Source: Candidatus Saccharimonadota bacterium
Lineage (GTDB): Bacteria; Patescibacteriota; Saccharimonadia; Saccharimonadales; Saccharimonadaceae
Direction: 5' to 3'
Length of the DNA: 64,000 bases
Assembly (NCBI GenBank): GCA_017480095.1
Contig: JAFVBG010000002.1
Span: forward strand, 129,728-193,727
Notes under the pieces: model-generated
The model's input: the letters and a program-made list of their open reading frames with translations, nothing else
What the model was told of the DNA's origin: nothing
Database searches by the model: none
Translations under genes and position numbers: made by a program
Shown: one piece after another, positions 19,934 through 38,517 of the stretch
Layout of the letters: every line of letters starts with the position of its first letter
Numbering within the stretch: the first letter of the stretch is position 1

Positions 19934-21235
19934 TTAGAGGTTGCCCTTGTTGTCGCAATTTTCAAAGTCAGAGGCACTGTCCTTTTTGGTTCTACATTCG
20001 TTCGTCACCCAGAAGGCCTTGTTGATGTCTTTTTGATCAGTGCCTGCCATCCAGACAGCATATTCTGGATAAGGGAAGCCTGTATCTACTAGCTCAATAC
20101 GAGCCTCAACTCGGCGATAGATGTCGTTGGCGCGACCGGTAGAGTCAACTTGAGCCTGGACCCCCACGAACGGTGCAATTTTATCAGAGCCGATACCGTC
20201 GTTGGAAAGCCCCGTAGCGCCTTCGCAGTTGGCTTTTTTACACATCGTCACAGAGAACTCCGTGCCAGAATCATTGGCATACGGCAGAGCGAGGCGGAGG
20301 AAGAAAGTGCTCGGATTGCGCGTGGTCGGGTAAGAATCTGCGGCATTCCCCGCTGGTACTGGGAGATTAATGACCGCGGTACACATAAACGCCGCGTTTG
20401 TACAACTCACGTCAAAAGGCGCATTGTAATCTTTATCCGCGATAGCGAGGACGTCAGCCTTACTGATGATTCTTACGTTCTGAGCCGTACTGGAACTATA
20501 GCTAGCAGGGCGAAGGAAGAGACTGGCAAAGTCAAGCATATTTCCACTCTTGGCAGAGATAGTGCCGAGATTGAAGCTGTTTGCAGTCTGGAAGACGTCC
20601 GCCGTAAGAGCCGGGATGAGGTTTTGATTTTTCGGTGGGAGGTTACTAAAGGCGGTTTTGTTGGTCATGTCTTGCGGGTGCCACATGATTTTTAGCGCCT
20701 GGACTTGACCGTAGTCACCGGTATTGGTGCGAAGTGGGACGACAATCGTACGGTTCGTGGAGTCGAGAGTACCACGATAATCCGTCAGTTCTTCAGAGAT
20801 TTTGACACAAGTATAAGCTTGCAGCATACTGGCGGAGTTATTGGAGTCGGAGATGTTTGTAGATTCTTGAATCACAACGGATTCATTGGTGATTGCCCGG
20901 CCAAGAGCCGTAGCTACCGTATCACAGTTACCACTAGCGATATTCGCCTGCATATCAGCGACGAAAGCACAATCCCCCGTGGTAGAGTTCTTATCCACGC
21001 AGTTGTGGTATTTCATCAAGGCAACTTTTGCATCTTCGATACCAGCCAGAGCTGAATCGTAGGCCGAAGTACTGAGATCGTCGTTGACTGTGTTCGTGAC
21101 ATCAGAAGTCATAATACGGATAAAGCTGATGGTGATAATACTCAGAATAAGTGTTGTAAAAATTACAACATATATTGCGGCTGCACCTTGCTTTGTTCCC
21201 TGTTTTTGTCTAGATGACCTAATCAAACTTTTCAT
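19934..21235 (-). CDS. PilX-like minor pilin, locus 1
   Basis: A 433-residue protein with a basic N-terminus and a hydrophobic helix (KQGAAAIYVVIFTTLILSIITISFIR is split here as residues about 17-42), followed by SAYDSALAGIEDAKVAL. This is the pattern of the PilX N-terminal domain, where a short basic leader precedes the pilin helix. The rest is a large beta-rich extracellular region with several Cys. It is the last gene of an eight-gene operon and is paralogous to 34587-35915. A TGTTGTAA/TTACAACA palindrome lies in the codons for VVIFTT. A GAGGAG site precedes the ATG. Confidence 0.78.
   Translation of the reverse strand: MKSLIRSSRQKQGTKQGAAAIYVVIFTTLILSIITISFIRIMTSDVTNTVNDDLSTSAYDSALAGIEDAKVALMKYHNCVDKNSTTGDCAFVADMQANIASGNCDTVATALGRAITNESVVIQESTNISDSNNSASMLQAYTCVKISEELTDYRGTLDSTNRTIVVPLRTNTGDYGQVQALKIMWHPQDMTNKTAFSNLPPKNQNLIPALTADVFQTANSFNLGTISAKSGNMLDFASLFLRPASYSSSTAQNVRIISKADVLAIADKDYNAPFDVSCTNAAFMCTAVINLPVPAGNAADSYPTTRNPSTFFLRLALPYANDSGTEFSVTMCKKANCEGATGLSNDGIGSDKIAPFVGVQAQVDSTGRANDIYRRVEARIELVDTGFPYPEYAVWMAGTDQKDINKAFWVTNECRTKKDSASDFENCDNKGNL
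21152..21170. repeat. TGTTGTAA...TTACAACA palindrome inside locus 1 PilX-like gene
   Basis: Perfect 8-bp arms with an AAA centre. It lies in coding sequence for VVIFTT and is identical to 35802-35820 in the paralogue. Confidence 0.6.
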
Positions 21236-21280
21236 GCTTATCTCCTCATATTATACATTAGAACGATGTTTTTTGAAACC

Positions 21281-22180
21281 CTAAGACTTTCCCGACGCAC
21301 GCACCGCAAAATTAAACTTGTTGATGGCACAGTAAGCAAAACCAGTATTGAGATTATCTGGCGCGTCTTTGCAAGTATTGGAGCTGGTCTGGATGTTGAC
21401 CGAGCCAGAAATCGTGCCGAGTGTGAAGGAGCCAGCATAGAGTGCGTGGGCGGTTAGATCCTGATAGTTGATAGCGTGAACATGAAAATCATAGACCGCA
21501 AGCTGGGTCTCGGAGCTGGCGCTCATGAGCTCACGCTTAGTATTAAAGACTTCGTTTGGAACAGTAATGCTTCTGTCCGGCGATATGCTCGCAGTCGCAT
21601 ACGAGGCTGGATAGCTACCAGGACTGCCATTCCAAGCATTAGAGCAAATCTCACGGTTGGAATCATTAAAGCGCAGTAGGCGATAATCCTGCACAGTTGT
21701 ACCGCTCGCACTGATTATGCTCTGTTTATAGTCCGTAAAGCCCTCTCTGGTCGATGAATGATAATAAGTGCCGTCCGTATTCAAAACGTAACCGCTATTC
21801 CAGACGTAAGAATACGAGCCTGTGCAGAAGAAACCGTAAGCTGGCGCAGTGATAGTCTCGTTAGAGGCTGGGATATAAACCGTGGTATTGACCTGGCCAT
21901 ACACCAGATTCCCCCAGTTTGAGCGGCATCGGCTCCGATCCGTAGTATTGGCGAGTGCATTACAATCTGGATAAGAGTTGGACGAGTCGGAAATCGTGCG
22001 CGTGAGCTCGTCGATTAGCTCAAGGCCGGCATTGTTGACCGAACGCAGGGTCAAACCCTTCTGGTAGATTGAAATTGAATAGACAATCAAAGTCGCAACG
22101 GCAATCAGCAGAAAAGCGACATAGCCAATCGAGATGGAGAGTTCTGCAATAGTAAAACCTTTTTTAGTCTGAATACTCAT
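21281..22180 (-). CDS. PilW-like prepilin, locus 1
   Basis: The 299-residue protein begins MSIQTKKGFTIAELSI, a type III/IV prepilin site: basic leader, Gly, Phe, and Glu at +5, followed by a hydrophobic helix of about 20 residues. Prepilin peptidase would cut after Gly. The remaining extracellular part has several Cys and Tyr/Ser-rich stretches. It overlaps the upstream prepilin by 4 bp (ATGA). The paralogue is 35899-36825, with the shared region KGLTLRSVNNAG against KGLSLKAVNTAG. Confidence 0.8.
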   Translation of the reverse strand: MSIQTKKGFTIAELSISIGYVAFLLIAVATLIVYSISIYQKGLTLRSVNNAGLELIDELTRTISDSSNSYPDCNALANTTDRSRCRSNWGNLVYGQVNTTVYIPASNETITAPAYGFFCTGSYSYVWNSGYVLNTDGTYYHSSTREGFTDYKQSIISASGTTVQDYRLLRFNDSNREICSNAWNGSPGSYPASYATASISPDRSITVPNEVFNTKRELMSASSETQLAVYDFHVHAINYQDLTAHALYAGSFTLGTISGSVNIQTSSNTCKDAPDNLNTGFAYCAINKFNFAVRASGKS

Positions 22181-22932
22181 CGAATTTTCTCCTGAAGCTC
22201 TGGATTATAGAGTCTAATAATAGTGCCGATAGTAGAAGGGTGGTCTGAGCCTGGCGCATACCAACAACTATAAATATGGAAATCGTAATATTCTGGTTGA
22301 TTATTCAACATATTTGACATGGCGGCCGATTTGCGCGCGATTACCCAGATACCCTCGGCTGCGCCGACATAAAGCTTGCCACTCTCATCATAATAATCCC
22401 TGTCCGATGAGTCCGAAGTGCCATCCCAAGCTGTATTACTAGCAGTATAGACCACGCGCGGATAAAGTGTTGCCTCACGAAATTTATTATTTGTCGCTTC
22501 AACCACAGTATTTGTTCCGCCAGTTGGGCTGAGATTTCGTAAATTTAGCACAAAGGCTTTATGATTTACAAGGTAGTTGCCATTATACCAGTTGCCACAT
22601 CTCCCTACTGCTAAATCTTGGATACTATCGTCATGATTAATGGCTCGACCTACAATTCTATTCCATAAGTCTTTGTAAGAATTGCTCCCTGTGCGCCCAT
22701 ATTCGCGCTCGGAGAGAAAAGCGTTATGGATGTAGCGCAAACCATCTGCCTGAGCGGCAATTTCGATGCGCGCTTGAGATAGTTCAAGCGCTGATTCGCC
22801 CTGCTGGAGGCCGATGTTCATCGTGATAATGGTAAAAATAGCCACTACCGAATAAGCCGTAATCGCAAAAAGTACCTCGATCATAGTGTCGCCTGGACGA
22901 AATTGCTTTTTATCTCTTAGTTGTTGTAACAT
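22177..22932 (-). CDS. PilV-like prepilin, locus 1
   Basis: A 251-residue protein with leader MLQQLRDKKQFRPG and cleavage context GDTMIEVLFAI, i.e. Gly, Asp in place of Phe, and Glu at +5. The conserved helix continues to NIGLQQGESAL. It probably forms a minor pilin with the neighbouring prepilins. It is paralogous to 36827-37588 (shared GDTMIEV and, near the C-terminus, TIGTIIRLYNPEL). Confidence 0.8.
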   Translation of the reverse strand: MLQQLRDKKQFRPGDTMIEVLFAITAYSVVAIFTIITMNIGLQQGESALELSQARIEIAAQADGLRYIHNAFLSEREYGRTGSNSYKDLWNRIVGRAINHDDSIQDLAVGRCGNWYNGNYLVNHKAFVLNLRNLSPTGGTNTVVEATNNKFREATLYPRVVYTASNTAWDGTSDSSDRDYYDESGKLYVGAAEGIWVIARKSAAMSNMLNNQPEYYDFHIYSCWYAPGSDHPSTIGTIIRLYNPELQEKIR

Positions 22933-23837
22933 CGGTTCTCCGTTGCATCATCTGCTACCACCACGATAATATCACCAGAGTTCCTGGCATCCGAGACTAA
23001 GCGAATATTACGGCGCCTCTGCCCTCCTCGGTCGTCAGAATCAACACAGAAGTTGACTTCTTGCGCCGAGTATCCACCACTCGTTATGCTATTAGTCAAT
23101 CTAGCGACCGAACCGTTGACTCCGAATAAGTTTCCTGCAACACTACCACTTGCCGCGGTGCCAGCAGAAGACAAAGTCCGAGACAGGTTAATCCCGTCTG
23201 CACTATATGTATTGTTGAGGTAGGTATGCACCACGCCAGACAGCGGAGAGCGGACGATGAGCAACGCGCCGGTGAAGCGACTGCCCGTGGTGTCTTCAAT
23301 CCAAGCATCCCAGTCTAGGGTGACAGAATATGACGAGGCGGAGAGTGAATACGGACTGGCCGCATTCGCACGGCTGAGCATCACGACACCGGCCTGCACT
23401 TCAGCCACGGCAGATAAATCGTCGGTGGCGGAGATGGGATGGCGATTGTCCACGATGTTTCCGATTACATCGTAAACATGAATCGCCTTTGAGTTGGTTT
23501 GGTCTTCTCCAAAGGTAACTAGTTTACCATAGACGGCGCAATCCGAGCGTCCAGAGCCAGATAGACCAGATGCCCCTAAATTGCGCGATGCAATCATGGC
23601 GGCATCCATAGTACAATAGTCACGCACTGTGGTCGTGGCCGAGCGGCTGGCGATTTGCACATCTTCTACCTCGTTATAAACTCGACGCAGGAAAGATGCA
23701 AAGTTTTGGACAGAGGAAGAAAAACGTTGGCTGGCGATGTTATTATGTGTATTGGCGATGACGCCGACAAACATCAGAGCTGCCACTGCCAAGAACAGCA
23801 TGACTTCTATAATCGTAAATCCGCGCTTACTCTTCAT
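22917..23837 (-). CDS. GspH/FimT-like prepilin, locus 1
   Basis: From ATG 23837 the protein begins MKSKRGFTIIEVMLFLAV, a canonical prepilin site with a six-residue leader; an in-frame ATG at 23864 would add nine residues and a deeper overlap with the upstream gene. The protein of about 306 residues continues with a beta-rich domain. FASFLRRVYNEVED after the helix and the C-terminal FCVDSDDRGGQRRRNIRL recur in the paralogue 37579-38517. In related systems this class forms part of the initiating minor pilin complex. Confidence 0.8.
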   Translation of the reverse strand: MKSKRGFTIIEVMLFLAVAALMFVGVIANTHNNIASQRFSSSVQNFASFLRRVYNEVEDVQIASRSATTTVRDYCTMDAAMIASRNLGASGLSGSGRSDCAVYGKLVTFGEDQTNSKAIHVYDVIGNIVDNRHPISATDDLSAVAEVQAGVVMLSRANAASPYSLSASSYSVTLDWDAWIEDTTGSRFTGALLIVRSPLSGVVHTYLNNTYSADGINLSRTLSSAGTAASGSVAGNLFGVNGSVARLTNSITSGGYSAQEVNFCVDSDDRGGQRRRNIRLVSDARNSGDIIVVVADDATENRCYNN

Positions 23838-24378
23838 CTTCGCCCTCGCAGTTTTCTGGCTCATACATCAGCTCGTCGTAAAGCCCCTGATAATAGCTGA
23901 CTTTCTCGGTGTCGCCTAGTTTTTTATAGACCTTGAGATAGAACTCTAGGACAGCTTGATATTCGCGGTCGGTCGGAGCGTAGTTTTCGGCCTCCGTCGC
24001 AAACTTCGCGGCGCGTTCATAATCTTGCACACCATAGTAATATTCCGCCGCCGCCATCTGATAGAAATGATACCCGGCAATGTTGTTAGTATTGCTCTCT
24101 AGGGCAGCATTGATTTTGCGCGCCAGCTTCTGATCGCCACCGTGCGCGAAATTATACTCTTTGACCTCAGTATAAAGCGCGCGATAAGAAGCATAAGGGT
24201 CTTCGGCGGTACCTTCGGGTAGTGGCGTATTCCAGAGTTTGGGGATAAAGATAATGCCCAAAGTAACCACTAATACTATACCAAGAGCGATGAGAATTGG
24301 ACGCCAGAAGCCCATATCGCGCCAGATTACTTTGCGACGCTGCTTAGCCTGGGCTGGAAGTTTCTTCGTTCCAGCCAT
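23827..24378 (-). CDS. Membrane-anchored TPR-like protein, locus 1 (third of three)
   Basis: A 183-residue protein with a basic N-terminus, one TM segment (about 29-46) and an extracytoplasmic helical region. YHFYQMAAAEYYYGVQDY, then ERAAKFATEAENYAP looks like degenerate TPR repeats. No enzyme motif is seen. It sits between the giant adhesin and the prepilins and could help assemble or scaffold them. The start is 2 bp from the adhesin stop. Confidence 0.6.
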   Translation of the reverse strand: MAGTKKLPAQAKQRRKVIWRDMGFWRPILIALGIVLVVTLGIIFIPKLWNTPLPEGTAEDPYASYRALYTEVKEYNFAHGGDQKLARKINAALESNTNNIAGYHFYQMAAAEYYYGVQDYERAAKFATEAENYAPTDREYQAVLEFYLKVYKKLGDTEKVSYYQGLYDELMYEPENCEGEDEE

Positions 24379-24380: not shown

Positions 24381-27300
24381 TTAATACCTCGGCGCAAGCT
24401 CGCGGCTATAGGTGGTCGTAGCTTGAGTAAAGCGGTTGAGCTGGGAGTAGGCCCAAAGGTAAACATCTGGGCGAAGGTTGAAGATTTCGGCTGGAGTGGC
24501 AGAACCATCATCGGCAAGGTTCTGCGCTGGGAGATTGCTATTGTTGAACTTCGCTCCGCCCTGGAGCGCGCCAGCGGTGCGGTCGAGAGAGAGTTCATTC
24601 GCAATGACTGGGCCGTTAATCATCAAGGTTCTCTTGCATTTATTGGCGGCATTGGTATCGGTGGCACTGATTTCCACGTTACAGGTGTCAACTTTACCAT
24701 AACTACTGACGGAAGTACCCGCAGTATTGGCGGCGATTAGCCAAGCGTCAACCTGGGTGACATTCTCAGCAATGGTGATATTATTCGCGATGATGATGAC
24801 TTGCGGAATATCACTGATATTGGAGATGTTTTGGGTGTTGCGCTGATTCATGACGAGGGTGTTTGGATTGGAAGCACAAGTGCCAGTGCCGATACAGATA
24901 TTGCCGTTAATGGTCACATTGCCATTGACACGGATGACGTGAGTGCCGGAGCTAATAGTAGTCGTGTTGATAGTTGCGCCACCAGATAGCTCGTAGTAGT
25001 AGGCATTAGAATTACCAGTACTGCCACCTAACTGCTTATCCGCCCCATAAGTTGGAAAGCTATTATTAACTGGAGTGCCAGTATAGCGAGAAAGAATCTT
25101 TTGCAACATATTCCCAGGCGAGACACCCGTAACGTTGGAGTGACCGAGGTCGTCGTTGTTTGAGTTGGAAATCGTCTGAATACCACGAGCATTATAGTAT
25201 TGCGAGTAGTTGCGGGTGGTAGCATAACCCATAGCGGCGCCAGAGGCGAAGTTATAGACACTACCGTTGGCTGTGACACCATATTCATCCCAAGAGCCAA
25301 AGACAACCTTATTGGCGGCGGCAGATGGGTTGAGTGCCCAGTTTGGAGCCTTATTAGAAACGGACGTATAGACACCAGCCTCAGTATAGAGACCGCCGTT
25401 CCAGACCTGGAAGTTAGCCTTTTTAGCAATCGTGCGACAAGAGGCATCTGAGAGCGCCCAGACAGCGTCATCAAAGTGGCTCATGCCACTACCCTGCCCA
25501 TCGGTAGAGTTGAAGGTAGTGCCAGAGGTCGGAGCAGACCACTTACCATGCGAACCGCCAGGATACGCGCCCACCGCCACGCAGTAGAGCGAGCCAACTT
25601 CTACACTATTGTCATCTGGGACGGTAGCCGTCTGCCAAGTGTTCTGGTCTAGCACCACGGCGCCGCGTGGATTACCGTCTTTATTCAAGGTGTCATTCGT
25701 GGTAGAGGCGGCAAACTCCTTGCAGTTGGCGCTGGTGCGGCCAAAGGCGGCGCAGAGGTCGGTGCCGTTCCAGTTGGCGGCGACTTTGCCCGTGAAGCTA
25801 GCCTTCTCCGATGGGGATACGATGAACTGAATAGCTTGGAACTTGGTGCCGTTCTCTAAGGTATAGGTCGCATAAGATTCGTTTGGATCGACGGCGGCAT
25901 TGATGCGTGGGTTGACCTTGGCGTCGAAGTTGAACTGGATATCTTCGCCGAGATAGACAGTAGAAGCACTGGAGATACGGGAGGAAGTGGTGATGTAATA
26001 ATTGTATGGTACAAGAACTTCTGCCGTTTTCGTTACGTCGGTAGCTACTGGAGTAGTGACTCCAGCCTGGGCAGTCTTGTTATTCGTAGTAGTGTATTTA
26101 ACTTTGTTCGTCTGGACTTGGAAATTGTCTCGGATGTTGACATTGAACCGACAGCCACCACCGGAGGAAGCGCCGTTGTCTTTATTCACTGTATAAATAC
26201 CCTCGGAAGGAACTTTATAAGCGTTGACGTTGACTAGGACGCCAGTTTCGGTGTCTTGTGGCCATTTATTACGAATCTCGTTATCGCAATAGCTACAAGC
26301 AGCAATATTATCTTTATCCTCGTCGGTGTTGCGATTATTCCTCGAAGTCCCGCCTGGACAGTGATGCCAGCGGCAGATGTTTTGAGAATAGTTATAGGAG
26401 TAACCATCTACCACGCCAGTCCCACCACCATAGACTGTATCACCATAGCCAGTAGTCTTAGAACAGGCATAGCGGTGGCGATAGCAGGTGAAAGCGTTTG
26501 GTCTCTCCACGTATCTTGCATCTGTACTGCCTGGAGCAGGGCCGTCAAACCAGGTATCACCAGTACAGTGATAATAATTATAGACGCATGTCTCCCAGCT
26601 TAGATACCTGCCTGGGAAGCCTTCGTGTAGGCCGTCGCAGTTGAAATTGTAACGGCATTCAGAACCGTGGAGATGATCGCCACTATTTGAACAGTAATAG
26701 TAATGGAACTCCCATTCAACCGAGTTTGCACTTTCATACTCTCTAACATAACAACCATAATATTCTTTCGCTATACTGTCCCAGCACCCCTCGTCATCCC
26801 ATTCATAATCATAGCAACTACGATTACCCCAACCAGAACCGTAATTTGGACAATAAGTGTACCAGTCCCACTGTTCATCTGCGGCACGAGAAGAATAGTT
26901 TGCACTGTCATACCCAGTGGCGATTGGAGAGGTAGTATTCTTATCGGAGTCCATGTAGGTAGTTCCTACCATGGTGGTAATTTCGTCCTTCGTCGCGGCG
27001 TTTTCGGTCCAGGTATCCTTACACTTGGAAGGGTCGGTAGCACACTTGTAGTCCACCCAACCAGCTTTATACTGGCTGTTATTGTAGTCATTGAAGCTGA
27101 CCGGATCGATATTATAAATCGACTTCGTACTCTCTTTCTTCGGTGGACCAGCGGTATCTTGCGAACCGGTGCGGTCTTTATCCCAGTCGCCAGCGTTGAC
27201 GCTCTTAGCGTCGTTCTTATGATCTACGCCCTCAAAATCTTTATACTGGCCATTATCACGAGAATCGTATTCTTTCCATGGGGCAGTCTCCGCATGGTAA

Positions 27301-29297
27301 ACATGACGAGGATTACACTTACACCAGTAGGTAGAATCTTGTGTGCCACGGTGAGCTTCTTTGATCCAGTTCTTGACGTCTTTATAAGTAATACGCTGGG
27401 CGATGCCTCTACCGACTTCAGACGAGCCGCCTTTGCCATAGGTGCTAGCCGTGCTAAAGCGCTCACAGTTGCCACCAGAAACGAAGGAGTGAATCTGGTA
27501 ACCCCCAGACATGAAGGCGTCTTTATAGTATGCACCACTACATTTGAGCTCGTTGGTCAATCCCCAAGGCGATTCGACATAGAAGCCCCAAGTGCCGATG
27601 TTGTTCACATTGCGCGAAGCAGGGTTGCTACCAGCCTTGAGCGGGAGCTCGGCTGGATTCTTCGTGGAGCTCTGGTAGAGCTTGGCGGCGTTAGAAGCAT
27701 TAGCAAGAATCTGGAGATTCCCAGCAGCGACTACACCCTTACGGCCAGAGACGGTAGTAGCATCGTTAAACTTGCCGAAGCCATAGTCTGCCGTACCAGT
27801 CGTGCCATAGGATGCACTATAACCACTAGCCCCCTTAGAACCAATGCGCGTAGTGCCATAAATCGAAAAGGTGTTTTCAAAGAGGTTGACAAAGCTGGTG
27901 CGAGCGGCATCACTATAATCGGTAGTATAAACGCCATTGGTACTACGCACGGCTTGTGCACCATAGCAGAAGGCATGCGCAAAGGTGACCGTATCACCTG
28001 GGCGAGCATAGACAAAGACGGAATCTTTGTTTGCCTTCATGGTGTTTTCAGTCTTATCAGTATTGAGGTTCGTCACCTGAGACCAGCCGTAAGTATCGCC
28101 ACGGTTGATGGAATAGATATTCTTGCCTTCACAGTAGTTCTCTGGAGGATCTGGTGGCTTTGCACTGCGTGAAAAAGTGATACAGGCTTCGGACGAGCCA
28201 TTGTCAGAATAGCTGGCTGAACCATTCGTCACGGTAATATTCTTATGATTATAATCAATCTTCTGACAGACTTTGACCGAGCCAGTCTCTGGCACAGTAA
28301 CTTCTAGGTCGGAAGTCTTGACATCTTGATAGTAATAGCCAGCTTCTGAGGCCTGTTTCCAGCCGGCGGCTTGAGAAGTGAGCTTGGTGTTCCCCTGCTC
28401 CGCCGCTTTCGGACTAGTGGACGAGGTAATCTTGTGCGTCGTATCGACAATCGGGTTGAAGCTATTTGGCGCACGGCCATCGAGCTTCAAGTAAATGCGC
28501 TGAGTAAAGTTCACCGTGACTTTCTGCGTGTTGTAGCTAAGGGTGACGTTTTGGTCTGTCCTGCCGTTTAGGGCAGAAAAGGTTTGATTACGATTATTAT
28601 AGCCGACGCCAGATTTTGAGGCAAAGTTGTAGGTATTAGAAACAGGCTCGGAAGGGTCTGGCTCAATCCGGATTTGAACAGGGTCAGAATAGCACGAACC
28701 AGGGCTACCGTTATAAGAGCTACCAAAGCAACGATAGAGGTGGACAGTAAAAGCATAACAACCGTCACCACAGTTTGGAGACATGTTGCTTTTGATGTAG
28801 TCAAGATTGACATTGCGAGTGACACCACCCGATTCCCATCCCGTAGAAAAGCCGTTGTCACTACTACCTGAACCACGATAGAAAGTAACTCCAGTAAAAT
28901 CTGTGAAAGCACCGTGAACCGTGCGTTGAGATGCTACATCCGTTGGCGACATACCGGACGAGCTAACTTCCGAGGTTAAGATGCGAACATTATTCGCACT
29001 ACCGCCACTCCCCTGATATACGGAGCCATAAAGCGTGACGGGAAGCAGACCAGCAAGATCGCCTTTATAATAGATAGCGGCATTCGACTTGTTTGCCGTG
29101 TCTGTAGTAAGCCAGGCAGCACCACGAGCGACGCCACCACCCCAGAGGTCGCAGGCGTTTTGCGTGGAAGTATTACTGCCACAACTAAGTGCAAAAGCAG
29201 ACTCCGAAAAGTAGGTGCCAAAAACAAAGCAGGTGGCAAAAACTAGCCCAAAAACCAACGGACGTTTCTGTTGACTGGCTAGTCTAGCGAATCGCAT
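24381..29297 (-). CDS. Giant secreted adhesin-like protein, locus 1
   Basis: A 1638-residue protein with a signal peptide (hydrophobic core at about 13-33, likely cut after SAFA). Residues about 38-215 form an N-terminal domain shared with the 908-residue paralogue (NNVRILTSE, GWESGGV, CYSDPVQI). A middle part unique to this protein includes a Cys-, Tyr- and Trp-rich stretch (about 800-1015). The last 300 residues, again shared, read like a repetitive beta structure (IPQVIIIANNI, VDAWLIAAN, RTLMINGPVI) and end in SRELAPRY. No sortase signal or TM segment is seen at the C-terminus. Its place among minor pilins suggests a pilus-associated tip or surface adhesin; sequence does not identify it as PilY1. 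Confidence 0.72.
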   Translation of the reverse strand: MRFARLASQQKRPLVFGLVFATCFVFGTYFSESAFALSCGSNTSTQNACDLWGGGVARGAAWLTTDTANKSNAAIYYKGDLAGLLPVTLYGSVYQGSGGSANNVRILTSEVSSSGMSPTDVASQRTVHGAFTDFTGVTFYRGSGSSDNGFSTGWESGGVTRNVNLDYIKSNMSPNCGDGCYAFTVHLYRCFGSSYNGSPGSCYSDPVQIRIEPDPSEPVSNTYNFASKSGVGYNNRNQTFSALNGRTDQNVTLSYNTQKVTVNFTQRIYLKLDGRAPNSFNPIVDTTHKITSSTSPKAAEQGNTKLTSQAAGWKQASEAGYYYQDVKTSDLEVTVPETGSVKVCQKIDYNHKNITVTNGSASYSDNGSSEACITFSRSAKPPDPPENYCEGKNIYSINRGDTYGWSQVTNLNTDKTENTMKANKDSVFVYARPGDTVTFAHAFCYGAQAVRSTNGVYTTDYSDAARTSFVNLFENTFSIYGTTRIGSKGASGYSASYGTTGTADYGFGKFNDATTVSGRKGVVAAGNLQILANASNAAKLYQSSTKNPAELPLKAGSNPASRNVNNIGTWGFYVESPWGLTNELKCSGAYYKDAFMSGGYQIHSFVSGGNCERFSTASTYGKGGSSEVGRGIAQRITYKDVKNWIKEAHRGTQDSTYWCKCNPRHVYHAETAPWKEYDSRDNGQYKDFEGVDHKNDAKSVNAGDWDKDRTGSQDTAGPPKKESTKSIYNIDPVSFNDYNNSQYKAGWVDYKCATDPSKCKDTWTENAATKDEITTMVGTTYMDSDKNTTSPIATGYDSANYSSRAADEQWDWYTYCPNYGSGWGNRSCYDYEWDDEGCWDSIAKEYYGCYVREYESANSVEWEFHYYYCSNSGDHLHGSECRYNFNCDGLHEGFPGRYLSWETCVYNYYHCTGDTWFDGPAPGSTDARYVERPNAFTCYRHRYACSKTTGYGDTVYGGGTGVVDGYSYNYSQNICRWHHCPGGTSRNNRNTDEDKDNIAACSYCDNEIRNKWPQDTETGVLVNVNAYKVPSEGIYTVNKDNGASSGGGCRFNVNIRDNFQVQTNKVKYTTTNNKTAQAGVTTPVATDVTKTAEVLVPYNYYITTSSRISSASTVYLGEDIQFNFDAKVNPRINAAVDPNESYATYTLENGTKFQAIQFIVSPSEKASFTGKVAANWNGTDLCAAFGRTSANCKEFAASTTNDTLNKDGNPRGAVVLDQNTWQTATVPDDNSVEVGSLYCVAVGAYPGGSHGKWSAPTSGTTFNSTDGQGSGMSHFDDAVWALSDASCRTIAKKANFQVWNGGLYTEAGVYTSVSNKAPNWALNPSAAANKVVFGSWDEYGVTANGSVYNFASGAAMGYATTRNYSQYYNARGIQTISNSNNDDLGHSNVTGVSPGNMLQKILSRYTGTPVNNSFPTYGADKQLGGSTGNSNAYYYELSGGATINTTTISSGTHVIRVNGNVTINGNICIGTGTCASNPNTLVMNQRNTQNISNISDIPQVIIIANNITIAENVTQVDAWLIAANTAGTSVSSYGKVDTCNVEISATDTNAANKCKRTLMINGPVIANELSLDRTAGALQGGAKFNNSNLPAQNLADDGSATPAEIFNLRPDVYLWAYSQLNRFTQATTTYSRELAPRY

Positions 29298-30969: not shown

Positions 30970-30986
30970 GTTGTAAAAATTACAAC
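30970..30986. repeat. TTGTAA...TTACAA palindrome between the pilin loci
   Basis: GTTGTAA-AAA-TTACAAC lies between the locus 1 promoter and the end of the locus 2 adhesin gene. As a weak hairpin it may end locus 2 transcripts. Confidence 0.5.
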
Positions 30987-31005: not shown

Positions 31006-33732
31006 TTAGTATCTCGGAGCTAATTCCCTGACGTAGGCCGTGCCAGGCTCGGCGGAAGAGGTGATTTGGCGGAGTATCCAGAAATAACTGTCGGCGCGGA
31101 AGTTGATGATTTCGCCCGGAGCGATACCGCCGAGCGCAGTTGCGTTGAGATTGCCAGAATAGAGATTAACGCCACTATTATTACCAGCCCAGCTACCGCC
31201 AGAACGGTTGAGCGTAATGCTATCCGTGATGACTGGGCCGTTGATGATCAAAGTGCGGCCGCAGGCGGAGGCGGAAAGATTGGCAACGTTACAGGTGTTG
31301 ACATTTCCGGTCACGACTAGCCAAGCATCAATTTGAGTCACGCTGGGATCGATATTGACATTGTTGGCAAAGATAATGGTCTGCGGGACGCTAGCTAGGG
31401 TGGAAAGATTTTGGCTGTTGCGGTCGGAGAGGACGAGGCTGGCTGGATTTGAACTACAATTCCCTCCCCCATTGCAGACATTAGCACTGATACTGAGTGT
31501 GCCGTCCACCTGAATAATACGCGTCACGCCAAAGCCGGAAGTCGATGGAGTGGATAGTACGCTGCTGATATTGGCATCGCCAGGAACATAGACGTATTGC
31601 GCGCCAGATGGGAGGGTATGATAAGCCACGGCCGAGAGATCTGAGCCAGCTGGACGAGTGTCCTCCTCGGTATGGTTGTTGATTGTGAGTCGATTTTTGA
31701 GCCGTGAGACGATGGAGTTGTCGAGGTTGACACCAGACATCCCCGAATATCCCGTGATGCCACTACAAGCGTCGTTGGCCACACTGAGATGAGTCAAGGT
31801 ACAGAAGGACGAGACTGGCCCGCGTGAAGAGCTATAGCCGAGCCCAGCCGCCGAAGCAAAACCGACGGTCTTCGCCGAAGATCCACCGTTCACGACGGCA
31901 TATTCTGCCCACGAGCCAAAGAGCTTGGTGGCGGAGCTGGCCGGTGCGTTGGAGAGGGCTGCGCCTGGCGTCTTTGCCGAAGTGGTAGCGTTAATGTTAC
32001 CGTTGGAATAGACACCACCGCCCCAGACTTGCGTAGAAGGCTTTTTGGCAATCGTGCGACAGGAGACGGGCGAGGTGCGCCAGTATGGACTAGTGGTCGG
32101 GTTGGTATTAGTGTTAGAAAGGGCGTAGCCATTCAGTCCAGTGGTTTCATCAAGAGTGATACCCGGTAAATTGTGCGAGTCGGCATGAGAGATACCCGAA
32201 ATGACGCAGTACTTCGTGCCTGGCTCCACGTCTGGCACGTAGCGAGCGACGTTGGTATTGAGCGATGAACCGACGGCGGAAGTTTCGAGACAGTTAGTAA
32301 AGCCTTTGCTACGGACATAGTCGCAGAGGCTGGAGCTTGAAGCGAGGACACCGGTTGAGCCTGTCAAAAGGTCGCCAGAGACCATGCCACTGGAGACTGG
32401 AATCGTGAACTGCGCATAGGCAACCTTAGTGTCGGATGGAACAGCAGTAGCATAAGTCGTGGTGCTAACGGCTGGATTGATGCGCGAATTGACCGCTAAG
32501 ACAAAGGAGCTATTGACTGTCTCTCCCGCATAGACAATATCAGTGGCAGAGATGTGGGCAGTAGCGGAAGTTTCAAAATTATATGGGTATCTGGCAGTAG
32601 CACAGGCTTTAGCATGACCATCTTGATCGCTACGTGAAGTTTCCGTGACATTACCCTCGGCATCGACCTCGTAGTTGACGGTTTTGTCGAAGTAGAGGTC
32701 TTGACAGACAGAGAAGATGTGCCCTAAGTCGAGGTTGACCGTGGTGGTAGGATTGTTGACCAGCGCACCAGTGGTGGAAGTGCCATACCAGGCTTGGTTG
32801 GTAGCGACTCCGCCAACCAGGGGATTATCGGTGTAGGTGTTCCAGTTGGTATGAATATCACCCGCGTGTTTGGCAATCGTACTATCGTTCAAGCGGAGAT
32901 AGTGTCCAAACTCAATGTTCAACGCGCCGTCACTAACGTTCTTTTCGGCGAAAGCAGAAGTAGTATCCCAACCGTCGTCCTTAGAGACGCCGTTTAGTAG
33001 CACCGTAGTCTTGCCAGAGTAGCTGCTTTCTCCCGGCTCAGGCTCCTCACCTTCATCCTGCAGGGCGATTTTCATCGGGTCGGAATAACAGCCGCTCGGT
33101 ATCCCCTGATAGGATGCGCCGTAGCAGCGCCAGACGTGAACCGTGCGTTCATACTTACCATTACCGAGATTCGTAGCGCTAGCTTTGAACGCGTTGATGT
33201 CGAGTATAGCGTCCACGCCACCAGATTCCCAGTTCGTGGACCAAGTACTAGCCGCACCAGCCCCGCGCCCACGGTAAATTTGACTCAGGGTGTAGCTTCC
33301 ACCAAAAGTGACCGGGGTATAGGTAATGCTCGAAAAATCAGAATCTGGGGTCATGCCACTACTGCCGCTCCGGGCTTCAGTGAGAATATGGACGTTATTA
33401 CCATATTTATCATCACTGGAAGCATAGCGCGTAAAAACAGCGCCGTATAATTTCACACTAATCGTGCCTTCGGTGTAGCCTGACGGAATTGTGATTTGAT
33501 CCACGGCAGCATCACTGTTGTTAGTTAGCCAGAGCGCACCGCAGTTATTATCGGTGCAGACATATTGAGCATTATTAGCTGAGCTATTGGAACCTGGCAA
33601 GGCAGAAGCCGCAAAAGCTCTTGGCGAACTAAGCCAAAACGCTATTGTCAAAAATAACATACCAGCGAAAAAGCTAGCGGATATTTTTAACCTGCTTTTG
33701 CTAATAGCTAATCCTGCTAATGCTATTCTCAT
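31006..33732 (-). CDS. Large secreted adhesin-like protein, locus 2
   Basis: A 908-residue paralogue of the 1638-residue protein. A signal peptide (about 1-42, AFAASA) leads to an N-terminal domain with NNVHILTEA, NWESGGVDA and CYSDPMKI. The C-terminal 280 residues repeat the same pattern (VPQTIIFANNV, IDAWLVVTGN, GRTLIINGPVI) and finish in VRELAPRY. It lacks the long Cys/Tyr-rich insert. The start overlaps the upstream stop (TAATG). Shared termini with different centres suggest the ends serve assembly and the centre target binding; this is inference. Confidence 0.72.
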   Translation of the reverse strand: MRIALAGLAISKSRLKISASFFAGMLFLTIAFWLSSPRAFAASALPGSNSSANNAQYVCTDNNCGALWLTNNSDAAVDQITIPSGYTEGTISVKLYGAVFTRYASSDDKYGNNVHILTEARSGSSGMTPDSDFSSITYTPVTFGGSYTLSQIYRGRGAGAASTWSTNWESGGVDAILDINAFKASATNLGNGKYERTVHVWRCYGASYQGIPSGCYSDPMKIALQDEGEEPEPGESSYSGKTTVLLNGVSKDDGWDTTSAFAEKNVSDGALNIEFGHYLRLNDSTIAKHAGDIHTNWNTYTDNPLVGGVATNQAWYGTSTTGALVNNPTTTVNLDLGHIFSVCQDLYFDKTVNYEVDAEGNVTETSRSDQDGHAKACATARYPYNFETSATAHISATDIVYAGETVNSSFVLAVNSRINPAVSTTTYATAVPSDTKVAYAQFTIPVSSGMVSGDLLTGSTGVLASSSSLCDYVRSKGFTNCLETSAVGSSLNTNVARYVPDVEPGTKYCVISGISHADSHNLPGITLDETTGLNGYALSNTNTNPTTSPYWRTSPVSCRTIAKKPSTQVWGGGVYSNGNINATTSAKTPGAALSNAPASSATKLFGSWAEYAVVNGGSSAKTVGFASAAGLGYSSSRGPVSSFCTLTHLSVANDACSGITGYSGMSGVNLDNSIVSRLKNRLTINNHTEEDTRPAGSDLSAVAYHTLPSGAQYVYVPGDANISSVLSTPSTSGFGVTRIIQVDGTLSISANVCNGGGNCSSNPASLVLSDRNSQNLSTLASVPQTIIFANNVNIDPSVTQIDAWLVVTGNVNTCNVANLSASACGRTLIINGPVITDSITLNRSGGSWAGNNSGVNLYSGNLNATALGGIAPGEIINFRADSYFWILRQITSSAEPGTAYVRELAPRY

Positions 33733-34547
33733 TAACCTGCACCCTCAATGGTCTCAATCTTCAACTTTGGATTGCGCTCTTTAGCAAGAGCAGCGTATTC
33801 TGCAGCCTTTTCTGTACTGCCGAACAACGTCTCATAGCGATAAATATCATAAGCCGTCTCCCAGGTCGGATTTAGCTTCTCCGCCTTATAGGCATCTTCT
33901 AGGATGAGTGTGTGGTAATTCTCACCAGTCGCAATCAGCCACTCGTGTAGTGCCTTAGCACGTTCAGAGTAAAGCATGGCCTTTTCTTCATCGGTTTTAG
34001 CGTCATAAATCTGGTCCTCGTATTCTTGAATCGCCATCAACGCACCCTGTTCCTTAAAAATCGGGTTGATACTTTCGCGGATTTCTTCGACCGTGCGATG
34101 ATTAGTCACTTCTTCGACATATTCAGTAGTCTCGGTCTCCTTCGCCTGCTCGACAGCACGCTGAGTACTAGAAACCGACAACATGATTATGGTTAGAATA
34201 ACCGCAACCAGAATAACACCGCCGATAGCAACTTCCTTTTTATGCTTATTCATGAAAAGTTCGTATTGCTCCTTCGGCGTAAAGGTCGGCTTACCCTCGT
34301 TTTTGACGTTGGTAAAATAATTCTGGTTATTGTGTGCAAAAGAAGTTGAGGTGATATTACGCGAGTGGAAGGCAGGAGTACCTTGATTGGTCTGGGCAAA
34401 TTGATTGTAGCCTTGCGGAGCGCGCTGATAGTTCTGGCCGTATGAGGTCTGCTGCGCTTGCATTGGCTGGGGGTTCTGAATCGGCTGCGGCCCTGGGCTT
34501 GGTTGACCTTGAGGTGGTTGTGGTTGATATGGATTCTGCGGATTCAT
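33732..34547 (-). CDS. Membrane-anchored TPR-like protein with Pro/Gln-rich head, locus 2
   Basis: A 271-residue protein. Residues 1-75 are rich in Pro, Gln and Asn and likely disordered in the cytoplasm. One TM segment follows (about 107-125), then helical repeats (SERAKALHEWLIATGENYH, EKAAEYAALAKERNP) outside the membrane. TGG-TAAAAT ends 6 bases before the ATG, giving this gene and the adhesin their own promoter. It matches the locus 1 membrane/TPR proteins in layout, not closely in sequence. Confidence 0.65.
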   Translation of the reverse strand: MNPQNPYQPQPPQGQPSPGPQPIQNPQPMQAQQTSYGQNYQRAPQGYNQFAQTNQGTPAFHSRNITSTSFAHNNQNYFTNVKNEGKPTFTPKEQYELFMNKHKKEVAIGGVILVAVILTIIMLSVSSTQRAVEQAKETETTEYVEEVTNHRTVEEIRESINPIFKEQGALMAIQEYEDQIYDAKTDEEKAMLYSERAKALHEWLIATGENYHTLILEDAYKAEKLNPTWETAYDIYRYETLFGSTEKAAEYAALAKERNPKLKIETIEGAG

Positions 34548-34586: not shown

Positions 34587-35915
34587 TTATAACCCGGCTG
34601 GAGCTGAGCCAGAATTGTTACAAGCCGTGACCGTGCCATTGTCTGCGGTCCAGCAGTTGTCGGTCACCCAAGTTGTGCGGTTGAGATCGGCAGTGCCAGT
34701 CTGCTGAAGGGCGTATTCAGGGAATGGGAAGGCACTGTCGAGCAAATCCACGCGCACTTCTACCCGGCGGAAAAGGTCGTTGGCACGGCCGGTAGAGTCA
34801 ACCTGAGCCTGTAAGCCGTCAAACGGTATTTCTGAACCCTCTGGACATCCAGCCGTAGAACAAAGTGTAACCGCTAAATCTGCCGTGCCACCAAAAGGCA
34901 AAGATAATCTGAGTGCCAGTGCTTCAGTGTTACGCGTAGAGCCACCACTAAACGGAGCGGGGAAGTTGATGACAGAAGAGCAACGAAACTCGGCAGAGTC
35001 TAACGTGTTAGCACAAGAAATCAGGACTGGATTATGCCCAGCAGAGGTATCGGCGTTCACTGGAACGGTTTTATTCGAAGCTTCAAGGACGGTGCTAGCT
35101 GGGACGGTAGTGATGCCCGTAGATGAGCCTGGGAGCAATAGCAGCTCAGAGTGATTTGTCCCGACGTTGTTCACGCTCAGCTGAGCAAGGTTGAATGTAG
35201 GGTCGGTCTGGTAAACATCCACCATGACAGCAGGAATCTTGTCCGAGCTGACTGATGGAATAGTGGTATTATTAGCATAGGTACCAGTATTTTCACCCGT
35301 GTACCAAGAGAACTTGACGGCGCGCACCTGCTCACGATTACCGTCACTATTGGTATCGGCCGCCCAAAGTGGAACTAGACGAGTATTGGTAGTGGAGTTG
35401 AGCGTAGCGCGATAATCTTCGGTCTGCTCACTAATCTTGATACAAGTATAAGCCTGTTCATAGGCAGAAGAATTATTATCACCCGTGCCAGATTGCTCTT
35501 GAATCACCACTTCACCAGAAGTCACGCGGCCGAGCGCCGTACCGATAGTATCACAAGAATCATTAGCAATACCGTTTTTAATATCAGCAATCAAGCGTTC
35601 GCAGGAGCCGACTGCCGCCGTGGCGTTAGCGGTGTAGCCCTCGTCTAAGCATTTGCGATAACGGACGAGAGCGATTTTGGCTTCTTCCACGCCAGCCAGA
35701 GCAGAATCATAAGCAGAAGTGCTGAGGTCGGCATTGATAGTGCGGGTCGATTCTGAAAGAATCACTCGGATAAAGCTAGTGACAATAACCGTTACTAAAA
35801 GTGTTGTAAAAATTACAACATAGAAGGTGGCCGCACCGTTTTTGGTGGCTAATTGTTTTTGCTTAGTTTTAGCAATAGCGTTTTTTGAATATGCCTGATT
35901 AATTTTGTTCAACAT
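34587..35915 (-). CDS. PilX-like minor pilin, locus 2
   Basis: A 442-residue paralogue of 19934-21235. A basic leader ending KNG precedes the pilin helix AATFYVVIFTTLLVTVI and then STSAYDSALAGVEEAKIAL. The C-terminal LQAQVDSTGRANDLFRRVEV is nearly identical to the locus 1 copy, showing common origin. The start at 35915 has GGGAG upstream; an earlier in-frame ATG would overlap the PilW-like gene deeply. It also contains the TGTTGTAA palindrome. Confidence 0.78.
   Translation of the reverse strand: MLNKINQAYSKNAIAKTKQKQLATKNGAATFYVVIFTTLLVTVIVTSFIRVILSESTRTINADLSTSAYDSALAGVEEAKIALVRYRKCLDEGYTANATAAVGSCERLIADIKNGIANDSCDTIGTALGRVTSGEVVIQEQSGTGDNNSSAYEQAYTCIKISEQTEDYRATLNSTTNTRLVPLWAADTNSDGNREQVRAVKFSWYTGENTGTYANNTTIPSVSSDKIPAVMVDVYQTDPTFNLAQLSVNNVGTNHSELLLLPGSSTGITTVPASTVLEASNKTVPVNADTSAGHNPVLISCANTLDSAEFRCSSVINFPAPFSGGSTRNTEALALRLSLPFGGTADLAVTLCSTAGCPEGSEIPFDGLQAQVDSTGRANDLFRRVEVRVDLLDSAFPFPEYALQQTGTADLNRTTWVTDNCWTADNGTVTACNNSGSAPAGL
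35802..35820. repeat. TGTTGTAA...TTACAACA palindrome inside locus 2 PilX-like gene
   Basis: Identical to 21152-21170 over 19 bases, in the same codons of the paralogue. Confidence 0.6.
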
Positions 35916-36825
35916 AGACTTTTTCTCCCGTCGCACGAGTGGCGAACTCAAATTTATTGATAGCACAATAGGCATAATCCGAGCTCAAGTTGTCTGGCGG
36001 AGCAGTGCAAAATTCGCCCGTGGCGTTGATGTTGATGCCGCCGCGCACGGTGGCGAGAATAAAGTTACCAGAATAGAAGCTATGCTTACTAGTCTCATGA
36101 TAGCTAGGAGTGAAGAGTTGAAAATCATAAACCGCTAGGGTGTCTTCATTATTATCTGAGAGCAGCTCGGTCGGGCTGGAATTGCCACCCGTGATGACAT
36201 GACGATGGTTCGGGTTGGCATAAGTTGCGCCGTTTTGTTCAAGCGAGCTGGTACAGACTTGACGTTTCTCGTCACGCACGGCGAGAAGATGGAAACCGGT
36301 ATAATCCGTGCCATTGTAATTAAGCGTGGCCTGACTGTCTGAGAGGTTGGCCCCAAAGTTTGAGACATAAGTGGACGAATCTAGGACGTAACCCGTATTC
36401 CAGAGGTAGGAGAAGTTTCCTGTACAGAGGACACCAGAGGCTGGCACTCGCCCAGAGATAGTGGTGTTGCTGGATTTTATCCTGACGTCGCTGACATAGG
36501 TCTGCTGGAAGAGGACTTTGCTACCAGCTTTTGCACTGCCAGCACAACTGGTACGCTGGGAGGACTCGGTGAGATAGTTGCAGAGGGTGGAAACTTTCTC
36601 GGACGGAGAAGCAGTTAGAGCGCGAGCGATATGATCGGTGATGTTTTGCCCAGCGGTGTTCACTGCTTTTAAGCTTAAGCCTTTCTGGTAGAGCGAAGTC
36701 AAGTGGATAATCAAGAAGGCGATAGTCACAAGCAGTACAGCGATAAAAGCCATCGCGATTGAAAGCTCGGCAATCGTAAAACCGTCATGGTTATTTTTAG
36801 CAATAGTTTTTTGCAATCTGCCCAT
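35899..36825 (-). CDS. PilW-like prepilin, locus 2
   Basis: A 308-residue protein with a leader ending HDG and the site GFTIAELSIAMAF, then a hydrophobic helix. It is paralogous to 21281-22180 (KGLSLKAVNTAG after the helix, and YAYCAINKFEFA near the end). The gene starts 1 base after the PilV-like stop and overlaps the PilX-like gene by 17 bp. Confidence 0.8.
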   Translation of the reverse strand: MGRLQKTIAKNNHDGFTIAELSIAMAFIAVLLVTIAFLIIHLTSLYQKGLSLKAVNTAGQNITDHIARALTASPSEKVSTLCNYLTESSQRTSCAGSAKAGSKVLFQQTYVSDVRIKSSNTTISGRVPASGVLCTGNFSYLWNTGYVLDSSTYVSNFGANLSDSQATLNYNGTDYTGFHLLAVRDEKRQVCTSSLEQNGATYANPNHRHVITGGNSSPTELLSDNNEDTLAVYDFQLFTPSYHETSKHSFYSGNFILATVRGGININATGEFCTAPPDNLSSDYAYCAINKFEFATRATGEKVYVEQN

Positions 36826-36826
36826 G

Positions 36827-37588
36827 CTAGTCGCTCCCTGTACTGATTAACTCTGGATTATAGAGGCGGATAATCGTGCCGATAGTGGTGGGCATAGATT
36901 GGCCAGGAGCATTCCAACAAGTCTGAATGTGATAATCATAAAACTCCGGCTTGCCATCGATGGCGGATTCTGAGGCAACGGAAGTCACCCAAATACCTTC
37001 GGCGGATTTTAAGGTGGTGTATTCGACATTGGTATTCGTAACATCGTTGCTGCGCTCGGAAATGTTAGCATCGTCCGTGGTCTCGCCGTTGACCGAAAAG
37101 ATTAGACGTGGCTGGAGCGAGGCAACCTTGAAAATGCCAGAATCTGTCACGGTGGAATAGATAGTCTTAGCCGGGTTAGTGGCATCAATCTTGCGCGTAT
37201 TAATAACGAAAGATTTATAACCACCAAAAATGCTCTCACTACCCGTAGGGGCATAGCGCACAGCACAATTATTCACCTGAAGAGAAAGGATAGCGCTAGA
37301 GCTGGAATTGTGCTGGCTCTTCAGCCGATTCCAGAGGTTACCAAATTCTTGCCCAGAAGTTAGATTCTTGCGCTCGGTAATATAAGAGTCATGGATATAG
37401 CGGATGGCCTCTGCCTGAGCGTTAATCAAATCGCGCGCCATAGTCTGTTCAAGGTTAGTCTCAGCGGTAGCGATGCCTAGATTCATGATGGCGATAGACA
37501 AGATGGAGACAAGGGAAAAGGTGGCAATACCAAACATTACCTCGATCATTGTGTCTCCGCGTTTAAATTTGAGTGATTTTAGAGGCAT
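36827..37588 (-). CDS. PilV-like prepilin, locus 2
   Basis: A 253-residue protein: MPLKSLKFKRGDTMIEVMF carries the same Gly-Asp prepilin site as the locus 1 partner. It keeps the EAIRYIHDSYITER region after the helix and the C-terminal TIGTIIRLYNPEL. It overlaps the upstream prepilin gene by 10 bp. Confidence 0.8.
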   Translation of the reverse strand: MPLKSLKFKRGDTMIEVMFGIATFSLVSILSIAIMNLGIATAETNLEQTMARDLINAQAEAIRYIHDSYITERKNLTSGQEFGNLWNRLKSQHNSSSSAILSLQVNNCAVRYAPTGSESIFGGYKSFVINTRKIDATNPAKTIYSTVTDSGIFKVASLQPRLIFSVNGETTDDANISERSNDVTNTNVEYTTLKSAEGIWVTSVASESAIDGKPEFYDYHIQTCWNAPGQSMPTTIGTIIRLYNPELISTGSD

Positions 37589-38517
37589 ACATTACTCCCT
37601 GCGTCAGCCTCTACCACTTCGACTGCACCAGCGTTAGTACCATCTGCACGCTCAGCGTGCAAACGAATGTTGCGCCGACCAGAACCATAAACATCATCCG
37701 AGTTCACGCAAAAATCAACAACCTTGTTCTGAAATTCACCATCCAGCAGGTTTGCTAGGAGTGTATTTGCCGTGGAAGCGGTAGTGCGAGCAGCAGAAAC
37801 GGCGGTCTCGCCACAAGCGTTGGCAGGAGTAGCAAGCACTGAATCCACATTAAAGTTGCGTGGAGAGCCGTTGAAATCTGCAACTAGGGTATGAATAGTG
37901 CCATTGACTGGGGAACGAACGACTAGAATCGCGCCGCGAAAGAGGTTGTCGGTGGTGGAAGCATTTTCAATCCGACCGCCCCACTGCGGAACATAACTAT
38001 TCCCTGTGCCAGCCAGATTGATATGGCAAGTTCCCTCGCCGTCCTCTTCGTAAGCCAAGAACTCAGCGTGCACCTCTTTCAATGCGTCAGAAAGACTGAG
38101 CGTACTACTGGAAAGCTTATGCGTATTATCGATAATGTCTCCGATCACGTCATAAGTATGGACGGTAGTATCATCTCCGTTCTCGCCAAAAATCATGATT
38201 TTGCCGTAAATGCCGCAGTTGGTGCGACCAGCGGTATTAGCATTGTTGGCAGATTGATACAGAGTGGAGTTGGGGTCGGAAGAGAGCGTACAACCAATAC
38301 GCTCAGCCGTATTTGTAGCACGGGGATTAGCGGTGCTCTCGACGTCGGCATAAATCCGACGCAAGTATTCGGCAAAATCGGAAACAGTATCATCGTAGCG
38401 TCGGCGGCCGATGCTACCGCTAGTAGTGGTAATCAGAGCCACGAACATGACAGCGGTAATGGCAAGAAAAAGCATAACTTCAATAATCGTAAAGCCCTTC
38501 CTAATGCCGAAACTCAT
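37579..38517 (-). CDS. GspH/FimT-like prepilin, locus 2 (first gene)
   Basis: The 312-residue protein starts MSFGIRKGFTIIEVMLFLAI, a canonical prepilin signal with cleavage after Gly. YLRRIYADVES follows the helix, and FCVNSDDVYGSGRRNIRL near the end matches locus 1. TGA-TATAAT (38525-38530) ends 7 bases before the ATG, so the locus 2 pilin operon is leaderless and reads 38517 to 34587. Confidence 0.82.
   Translation of the reverse strand: MSFGIRKGFTIIEVMLFLAITAVMFVALITTTSGSIGRRRYDDTVSDFAEYLRRIYADVESTANPRATNTAERIGCTLSSDPNSTLYQSANNANTAGRTNCGIYGKIMIFGENGDDTTVHTYDVIGDIIDNTHKLSSSTLSLSDALKEVHAEFLAYEEDGEGTCHINLAGTGNSYVPQWGGRIENASTTDNLFRGAILVVRSPVNGTIHTLVADFNGSPRNFNVDSVLATPANACGETAVSAARTTASTANTLLANLLDGEFQNKVVDFCVNSDDVYGSGRRNIRLHAERADGTNAGAVEVVEADAGSNVCL

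Follow-up and report, generated by a model that had tools for sequence, protein, structure and literature searches.

Minor pilins encoded in several complete sets have been described in bacteria with type IV pili (T4P). In Myxococcus xanthus, three clusters for FimU, PilV, PilW, PilX and PilY1 act with one machine; that their tips differ in properties was raised there as speculation (PMC7541494). In Xylella fastidiosa, the duplicated minor-pilin sets have neofunctionalised and diverged in function (PMC9956873). Multiple tip sets per machine are known in both Myxococcus and Xylella. In Saccharibacteria other than clade G1, one T4P has been reported (PMC12206443). Here we describe two cassettes of minor pilins and large secreted proteins, called A and B, at positions 19934 to 38517 of a 64,000-nucleotide stretch of DNA (the window) from the genome of a Candidatus Saccharimonadota bacterium (813 kb, 97.9% complete, 8 contigs). 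We consider it reasonably probable that the region encodes the tip (priming) module of one T4P twice, in diverged copies, with a solenoid protein as the tip head.

Results

Every gene of the two cassettes lies on the minus strand and all the open reading frames (ORFs) are intact, in the content and at the positions given by a preliminary description of this DNA. Each cassette is composed of four minor pilins (GspH, PilV, PilW and PilX), one or several bitopic proteins resembling tetratricopeptide repeat (TPR) proteins, and a large Sec-secreted protein. Cassette A reads from 38517 to 31006 in the order GspH (312 amino acids), PilV (253), PilW (308), PilX (around 442–462), TPR-like protein (271) and secreted protein (908). 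Cassette B reads from 30923 to 19934 in the order TPR-like protein (around 308–320), TPR-like protein (around 219–251), secreted protein (1638), TPR-like protein (183), GspH (315), PilV (251), PilW (299) and PilX (433). The difference in gene order noted earlier, with the secreted protein last in A and first in B, is real. All-against-all BLASTP bears out that the blocks of minor pilins and large adhesin are paralogous, since the namesakes pair best across cassettes: GspH with 36% identity (1e-52), PilV with 37% (4e-55), PilW with 38% (5e-62) and PilX with 42% (2e-104). The attribution to Saccharibacteria is supported by the named relatives of the locus, all of them Candidatus Saccharibacteria metagenome-assembled genomes (MAGs), most from ruminant gut. 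The window comes from a tiny Saccharibacterium, which probably lives on other bacteria.

The minor pilins of cassette A begin with a GspH/FimU-like protein (37579..38517) with the motif G/FTIIE, cleaved after the G and carrying glutamate 5 (Glu5); it matched PF07963 and TIGR01708 below cut-off, and N_methyl above cut-off in the genome search. The PilV/GspI-like pilin (36827..37588; G/DTMIE) was assigned from its order and its 37% homology to cassette B, and the PilW/GspJ-like pilin (35899..36825; G/FTIAE) from BLASTP pairing and prepilin motif. The PilX/GspK-like pilin (34587..35975, with a probable start around 35915; G/AATFY) is without Glu5. Their counterparts in cassette B, assigned by BLASTP pairing and prepilin motif and for GspH also by domain matches, are GspH/FimU-like (22917..23864; G/FTIIE), PilV/GspI-like (22177..22932; G/DTMIE), PilW/GspJ-like (21281..22180; G/FTIAE) and PilX/GspK-like, again without Glu5 (19934..21235; G/AAAIY).

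Prepilin-type signal sequences were found on all these pilins, with Glu5 in GspH, PilV and PilW and not in PilX of both cassettes. Over the window and the relatives, Glu5 is absent from about 44 of 46 PilX proteins and present in the other three pilins in 39/42, 32/33 and 35/43 cases, a few of these cells being misreadings of the start site or of the motif. Four prepilin-motif pilins encoded together, of which only PilX is without Glu5, are features of the type IVa minor-pilin/PilY1 tip complex. A PilX/GspK devoid of Glu5 is the pattern of tip pilins (PMC7541494), and the M. xanthus clusters 1–3 resemble the present locus in this respect as well as in having several full sets of four minor pilins with one large secreted tip protein on one machine. 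The AlphaFold2 (AF2) model of PilX from cassette A, with a predicted local distance difference test score (pLDDT) of 75, consists of an N-terminal helix of around 89 residues and a beta domain. The PilX1 of TM7x is predicted to carry a jelly-roll-like beta domain (PMC12206443). For the PilX modelled here, only weak jelly-roll matches were obtained (virus VP1, Z 6.4; best Foldseek E 0.02), which we took as a common beta arrangement and not as kinship.

The preliminary description had called the membrane proteins of the cassettes TPR-like; bitopic proteins are indeed present, but their TPR identity is weak (TPR_2 with an E value of 0.73, in a single protein). In cassette A, the 271-residue partner of the secreted protein (33732..34547) is preceded by a promoter-like TAAAAT 7 nucleotides before its ATG. 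In cassette B, the first ORF (29961..30923, 320 residues) is better started at ATG 30887, which gives 308 residues; it matches the relatives' loci L046 (5e-144) and L045 (4e-12). The second (29300..30055, 251 residues) is better started at around 29959 (about 219 residues) and has a weak match to L057 (2e-6). The 183-residue protein (23827..24378) is kept between the secreted protein and GspH in the relatives' loci, with 11–14 profile matches.

The two large proteins, of 908 residues in A (31006..33732) and 1638 residues in B (24381..29297), both end in the tail RELAPRY and have no C-terminal anchor. No prepilin motif was found in them; they start instead with a Sec-type signal peptide, located by eye (AFA then A, AFA then L). 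Protein A comprises an N-domain common with B, a short linker, an immunoglobulin (Ig)-like sandwich (residues 386–564) and a predicted beta-solenoid (571–881). Protein B has the common N-domain, a VCQ domain, a centre of around 700 residues rich in cysteine and aromatic residues, and the Ig-like and solenoid domains. The shared N- and C-terminal domains announced earlier are borne out, with 34% identity at both ends in BLASTP (2.7e-24 at the N-terminus, 4e-64 at the C-terminus), and the centres do not match, as had also been proposed. The difference is, however, mainly one of presence and absence, not one of two comparable centres: alignment with 19 relatives showed the family-typical centre in B and just a short, dissimilar linker in A. 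The idea that the centres are alternative binding heads is not supported, A being simply without the centre found in B and in the relatives; their use for different hosts or stages, also raised in the preliminary description, is a conjecture. This centre contains the motif xAKPGDxVxFxHxxCxGAxxV followed by the cysteine/aromatic-rich stretch, and its profile matches L046 (6e-19) and L047 (3e-15). Homology of the short centre of A to part of B was not detected: the pairwise score was no higher than that of shuffles, and the profile match (E 0.003) was confined to the VCQ motif. None of the relatives compared had a match to the N-terminal domains of A and B.

Among 58 secreted proteins of this kind, 53 carry a proline at position −3 from the C-terminus, versus 3.6% of other ORFs, and 55 end in Y, F or L. 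The C-terminus of the secreted protein reads as a conserved P-x-aromatic/aliphatic tail. Structure prediction, which had been suggested as a check, was performed on protein A and gave a moderately confident C-terminal half, in which residues 386–564 resemble an Ig-type sandwich. Residues 571–881 of this model matched 17 ice-binding-protein structures (Z 12–13.4) and ComZ (6qvi, Z 9.7), the next unrelated folds remaining at Z ≤7.3. For the C-terminal domain of the secreted protein, the predicted fold is a beta-solenoid like that of ice-binding proteins and ComZ. A PilY1 protein was ruled out, because PF05567 is found in neither large protein, nor anywhere in the genome, and because the model of the C-terminal domain is a solenoid and not a propeller. 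In M. xanthus, by contrast, the large protein is a PilY1, a family with a C-terminal beta-propeller, and the bitopic TPR-like partners belong to the present locus. Searches of Pfam, NCBIfam and PDB sequences with PilX and the large proteins gave nothing useful.

The relatives connect the secreted protein with the pilus machinery. The conserved module is present in 24 named Saccharibacteria MAGs, and, among relatives from further genera and families, a full operon was found in L096 and L099 (family f1) in the order small membrane protein-secreted protein-pilM-pilN-pilO-pilB-pilT-pilC-pilA-pilD-GspH-PilV-PilW-PilX. The order is the same in L097 (f6), with divergent pilins, and also in L098 (f31) up to pilC, the last gene of the stretch retrieved. 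We then considered the 5 kb upstream of 40 pilM genes sampled across the class. In 22 of these regions, from around 18 families (locus one), the gene immediately before pilM codes for a large secreted protein, and the solenoid profile matched at E<1e-5 in 16 of the 22, versus 0 of 17 regions of the other pilM type. In these 17, pilM is preceded by other genes, mostly pilC, pilin and minor pilins (second system); the last region (L134) is shortened by a contig end. This genetic linkage is seen in the relatives, while in the window genome the machinery stands elsewhere. The secreted protein is apparently a standard part of the pilus of the class that has been overlooked. The locus one of TM7x shares the class-wide machinery and pilins of the PilV, PilW and PilX types; it differs by the two machines of that organism, by the fact that no duplicated T4P-1 tip set was reported, and by its list of 24 pilus genes, which contains no secreted solenoid protein (PMC12206443). 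No published description of such a secreted protein was found in the searchable papers, preprints and most subscription papers lying outside the search. The solenoid component seems new, and the class-wide protein is a candidate replacement for PilY1.

In the window genome, the machinery locus L010 (contig C3, 303–315 kb) encodes PilM, PilB, PilC, PilT, a pilin and PilD. It is the one machinery locus, and its PilC (PF00482) is the single one of the genome; a second assembly platform PilC2, as in clade G1, was not found. The two tip sets therefore probably serve one pilus. A solitary PilB/GspE-like ATPase (PF00437; L011:11475-13109) lies on contig C1 beside rplS, rnhB, recA and recX; its surroundings resemble the locus-two neighbourhood of TM7x and it may be what is left of a second system. 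An orphan type IV pilin with an N_methyl motif lies near ruvB (L012:8466-8984; C3, around 78.5 kb) and shares 26% identity over 69 residues with the major-pilin candidate. In the window genome the two ends of the old operon have come together, and their order, [TPR-like, secreted protein][GspH-PilV-PilW-PilX], is that of cassette B. Because the relatives' operons have the secreted protein first and the pilins last, the gene-order difference is most simply explained if this ancestral order is kept in B and rearranged in A.

A copy-number survey with the PilX profile covered 81 genomes of the genus, including this one, and 64 sampled genomes from other genera of the family. Within the genus, this genome alone has two intact PilX copies; of the other 80, 74 have a single copy and the rest none. 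Two real copies were found in two genomes from the other genera, G074 (in tandem, around 11 kb apart) and G010 (on two contigs), and in the tree the two copies of each genome are sisters. The duplication of the cassette is therefore both rare and recurrent. Large proteins of the solenoid type are multiple more often than cassettes, with tandem pairs in several genomes. In other families, tandem solenoid proteins stand upstream of pilM in L108 (2-1804 and 1863-4928), L136 (301-2217 and 2876-4900, on the operon strand) and L099 (693-3469), that is, duplication of the head without duplication of the pilins.

The concatenated pilin trees group A, B, L045, L046, L047 and L049 in one clade (100/100), and the duplication falls inside this subclade. 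The best tree associates A with L045/L046/L047/L049 (94/92), B branching just outside on a long branch. A sister relationship of A and B was not rejected by the approximately unbiased (AU) test (p 0.084), and the domain common to their N-termini favours sister copies or exchange.

Expression signals precede both cassettes. A near-consensus promoter, TTGTCA-18-TATAAT (38525..38554, minus strand), ends 7 nucleotides before the ATG of GspH in A, a leaderless-type start. In B, a −10 element TATAAT (30895..30900, minus strand), with a weak −35, is located 7 nucleotides before ATG 30887 of the first gene. Between the cassettes lies a terminator-like hairpin, GTTGTAA-TTT-TTACAAC, with a T-run (30965..30986, minus strand; z −2.4 versus shuffles for 30935–31005). 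Separate transcripts for A and B are likely, given these individual TATAAT sites and the intervening hairpin. Among the relatives, a perfect TATAAT close to the ATG was seen for 19 of 42 GspH genes versus 0 of 31 PilV genes. The position of TATAAT 7–10 nucleotides before start codons suggests that leaderless transcripts are common in this lineage.

The cassettes are situated in the middle of a 341-kb contig and are flanked on one side by tRNA-Met and the gene up141, on the other by tRNA-Met and a reductase gene. Because single-cassette relatives have these flanks too and the locus is mid-contig, an assembly artefact was thought an unlikely source of the two cassettes. The gene up141 (38592..39017, minus strand) encodes a protein of 141 residues with one transmembrane segment and has a TATAAT 10 nucleotides before its ATG; it is found next to the locus in around 33 relatives' loci, nearly all, with around 50% identity. 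Beyond it, positions 39132–48159 form a segment of low GC content (0.38–0.42) that is not in the relatives' loci, a defence island adjoining tRNA-Met. The segment contains a NUDIX gene, a serine-recombinase-type protein (39754–40929), a methyltransferase (42306–43796), a BsoBI-type restriction enzyme (43813–44769) and a SMODS/AGS_C nucleotidyltransferase (45196–46557) of the type of cyclic-oligonucleotide-based anti-phage signalling systems (CBASS). A 19-bp repeat of the 3′ end of tRNA-Met at 39132 and 39837 looks like an attachment-site duplication. On the other side, between tRNA-Met and the reductase gene, a gene with D-Ala-D-Ala carboxypeptidase S11 and VanY domains (17577–19628) is absent from this place in the relatives.

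Discussion

The role in a pilus tip that the preliminary description had advanced is the best reading of the locus: in relatives, the T4P operon has the gene of the secreted protein as its first large one, PilX is devoid of Glu5 and the predicted solenoid fold is like that of ComZ. We propose that GspH, PilV, PilW and PilX of each copy would form a short helical cap that starts pilus assembly, with the Glu5-less PilX outermost. The solenoid protein would dock on this cap by means of its P-x-Y tail and its conserved C-terminal half, with the variable N-terminal part facing outward as a contact head, and would replace PilY1 in function. As possible chaperones, the bitopic TPR-like proteins could hold the secreted protein or its tail before assembly. 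A single machine (PilM/N/O/B/C/T/D and the major pilin) would build pili on either cap, so that the cell could make pili with the short head (A, 908 residues) or with the long, cysteine-rich head (B, 1638 residues), possibly different in binding. Cassette B would keep the ancestral operon order and A would be a duplicated, rearranged copy with its own promoter. X. fastidiosa offers a comparable case of duplicated and diverged operons for minor pilins and tip adhesin (pilE/V/W/X, fimT and pilY1 sets); its system is built on PilY1 and has demonstrated, mostly opposing phenotypes (PMC9956873).

Several observations weigh against this proposal. The surface or tip location of the secreted protein is one that we infer from the sequence. 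The AF2 model of protein A has a mean pLDDT of 50 and its N-terminal half is unreliable; no pilin was among the matches of the PilX A model to solved structures. The secreted proteins have no sequence-level match to PF11999, to solved ice-binding members or to the ComZ family, so that the solenoid is a fold prediction and not a family membership. The pilins of cassette B are on long branches, which could mean relaxed constraint. The extra PilB-like ATPase on C1 and an assembly of 8 contigs at 97.9% completeness leave room for a second, partial system, and the same machinery could also serve DNA uptake.

This last point leads to the main rival, because of ComZ: that cassette A, cassette B or both encode tips for DNA uptake, with a solenoid protein that is a ComZ-like DNA receptor and not a host adhesin. 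The Thermus thermophilus ComZ/PilA2 system has an ice-binding-type beta-solenoid at the proposed T4P tip and a GspK-like tip pilin, and ComZ, the proposed tip-associated DNA receptor, shares the predicted fold (PMC6561018). In ComZ, however, the solenoid is inserted in a pilin, while here the solenoid protein, with its Sec signal peptide, and the Glu5-less pilin are separate genes; ice-binding proteins, whose function is quite different, have the fold as well. Natural competence is known in Saccharibacteria (PMC10633639), and one Xylella minor-pilin paralog became a DNA receptor (PMC9956873). The N-terminal part, large and fast-changing, is closer in character to a recognition head than to a generic binder of DNA. 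We regard this explanation as unlikely.

It is less likely still that the duplication is redundant or decaying, with B (or A) a drifting spare copy deprived of a distinct role. At 36–42% identity, neutral decay would have broken the frames, yet all 14 genes are intact without stops, and both cassettes retain the Glu5 pattern, the signal peptides, the RELAPRY tail and their own promoter-like sites. The occurrence of two copies in this genome alone among 81 of the genus, the long branches of B and the lack of the centre of around 700 residues in A would fit such a drift.

We find it improbable that the locus encodes a pseudopilus like that of the type II secretion system (T2SS), in which GspH-I-J-K-like proteins push the solenoid protein out as a released substrate. 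Although the best curated pilin matches are to the T2SS GspH and GspI models, the Glu5-less pilin is GspK-like and PilY1 has been likened to a T2SS substrate (PMC7541494), the machinery has a PilT-type ATPase and PilM, typical of T4P, and the thick pilus involved in twitching was assigned to T4P-1 of Nanosynbacter (PMC12206443). Least probable of all is that each cassette feeds a pilus of its own, in the manner of T4P-1 and T4P-2 in Nanosynbacter, with the second pilus using the PilB-like ATPase on C1, whose recA and recX neighbours recall the recAX of TM7x locus two (PMC12206443), since the genome has one PilC platform, the cassettes are paralogs of each other with T4P-1-type solenoid proteins, and a single T4P is the reported state outside clade G1.

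The proposal of two tip modules on one pilus bears on host recognition. The tip protein of the essential Saccharibacteria pilus has been unnamed so far, and a gene of the candidate class adjoins pilM in all the sampled locus-one regions that were fully covered. The tractable strains TM7x and S. epibionticum make this class accessible. With its rare natural duplication, the present genome would allow two heads on the same machine to be compared. More tentatively, and with less confidence than for the locus itself, all Saccharibacteria may depend on an essential T4P with a PilY1-free tip, in which a Sec-secreted solenoid protein, docked by its C-terminal tail with the help of TPR-like proteins, would be the universal host-contact head; here the module would be duplicated, giving one machine two heads. 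If true, PilY1 would not be the sole solution for a large T4P tip protein, and the idea of a solenoid at the tip would extend beyond Thermus ComZ.

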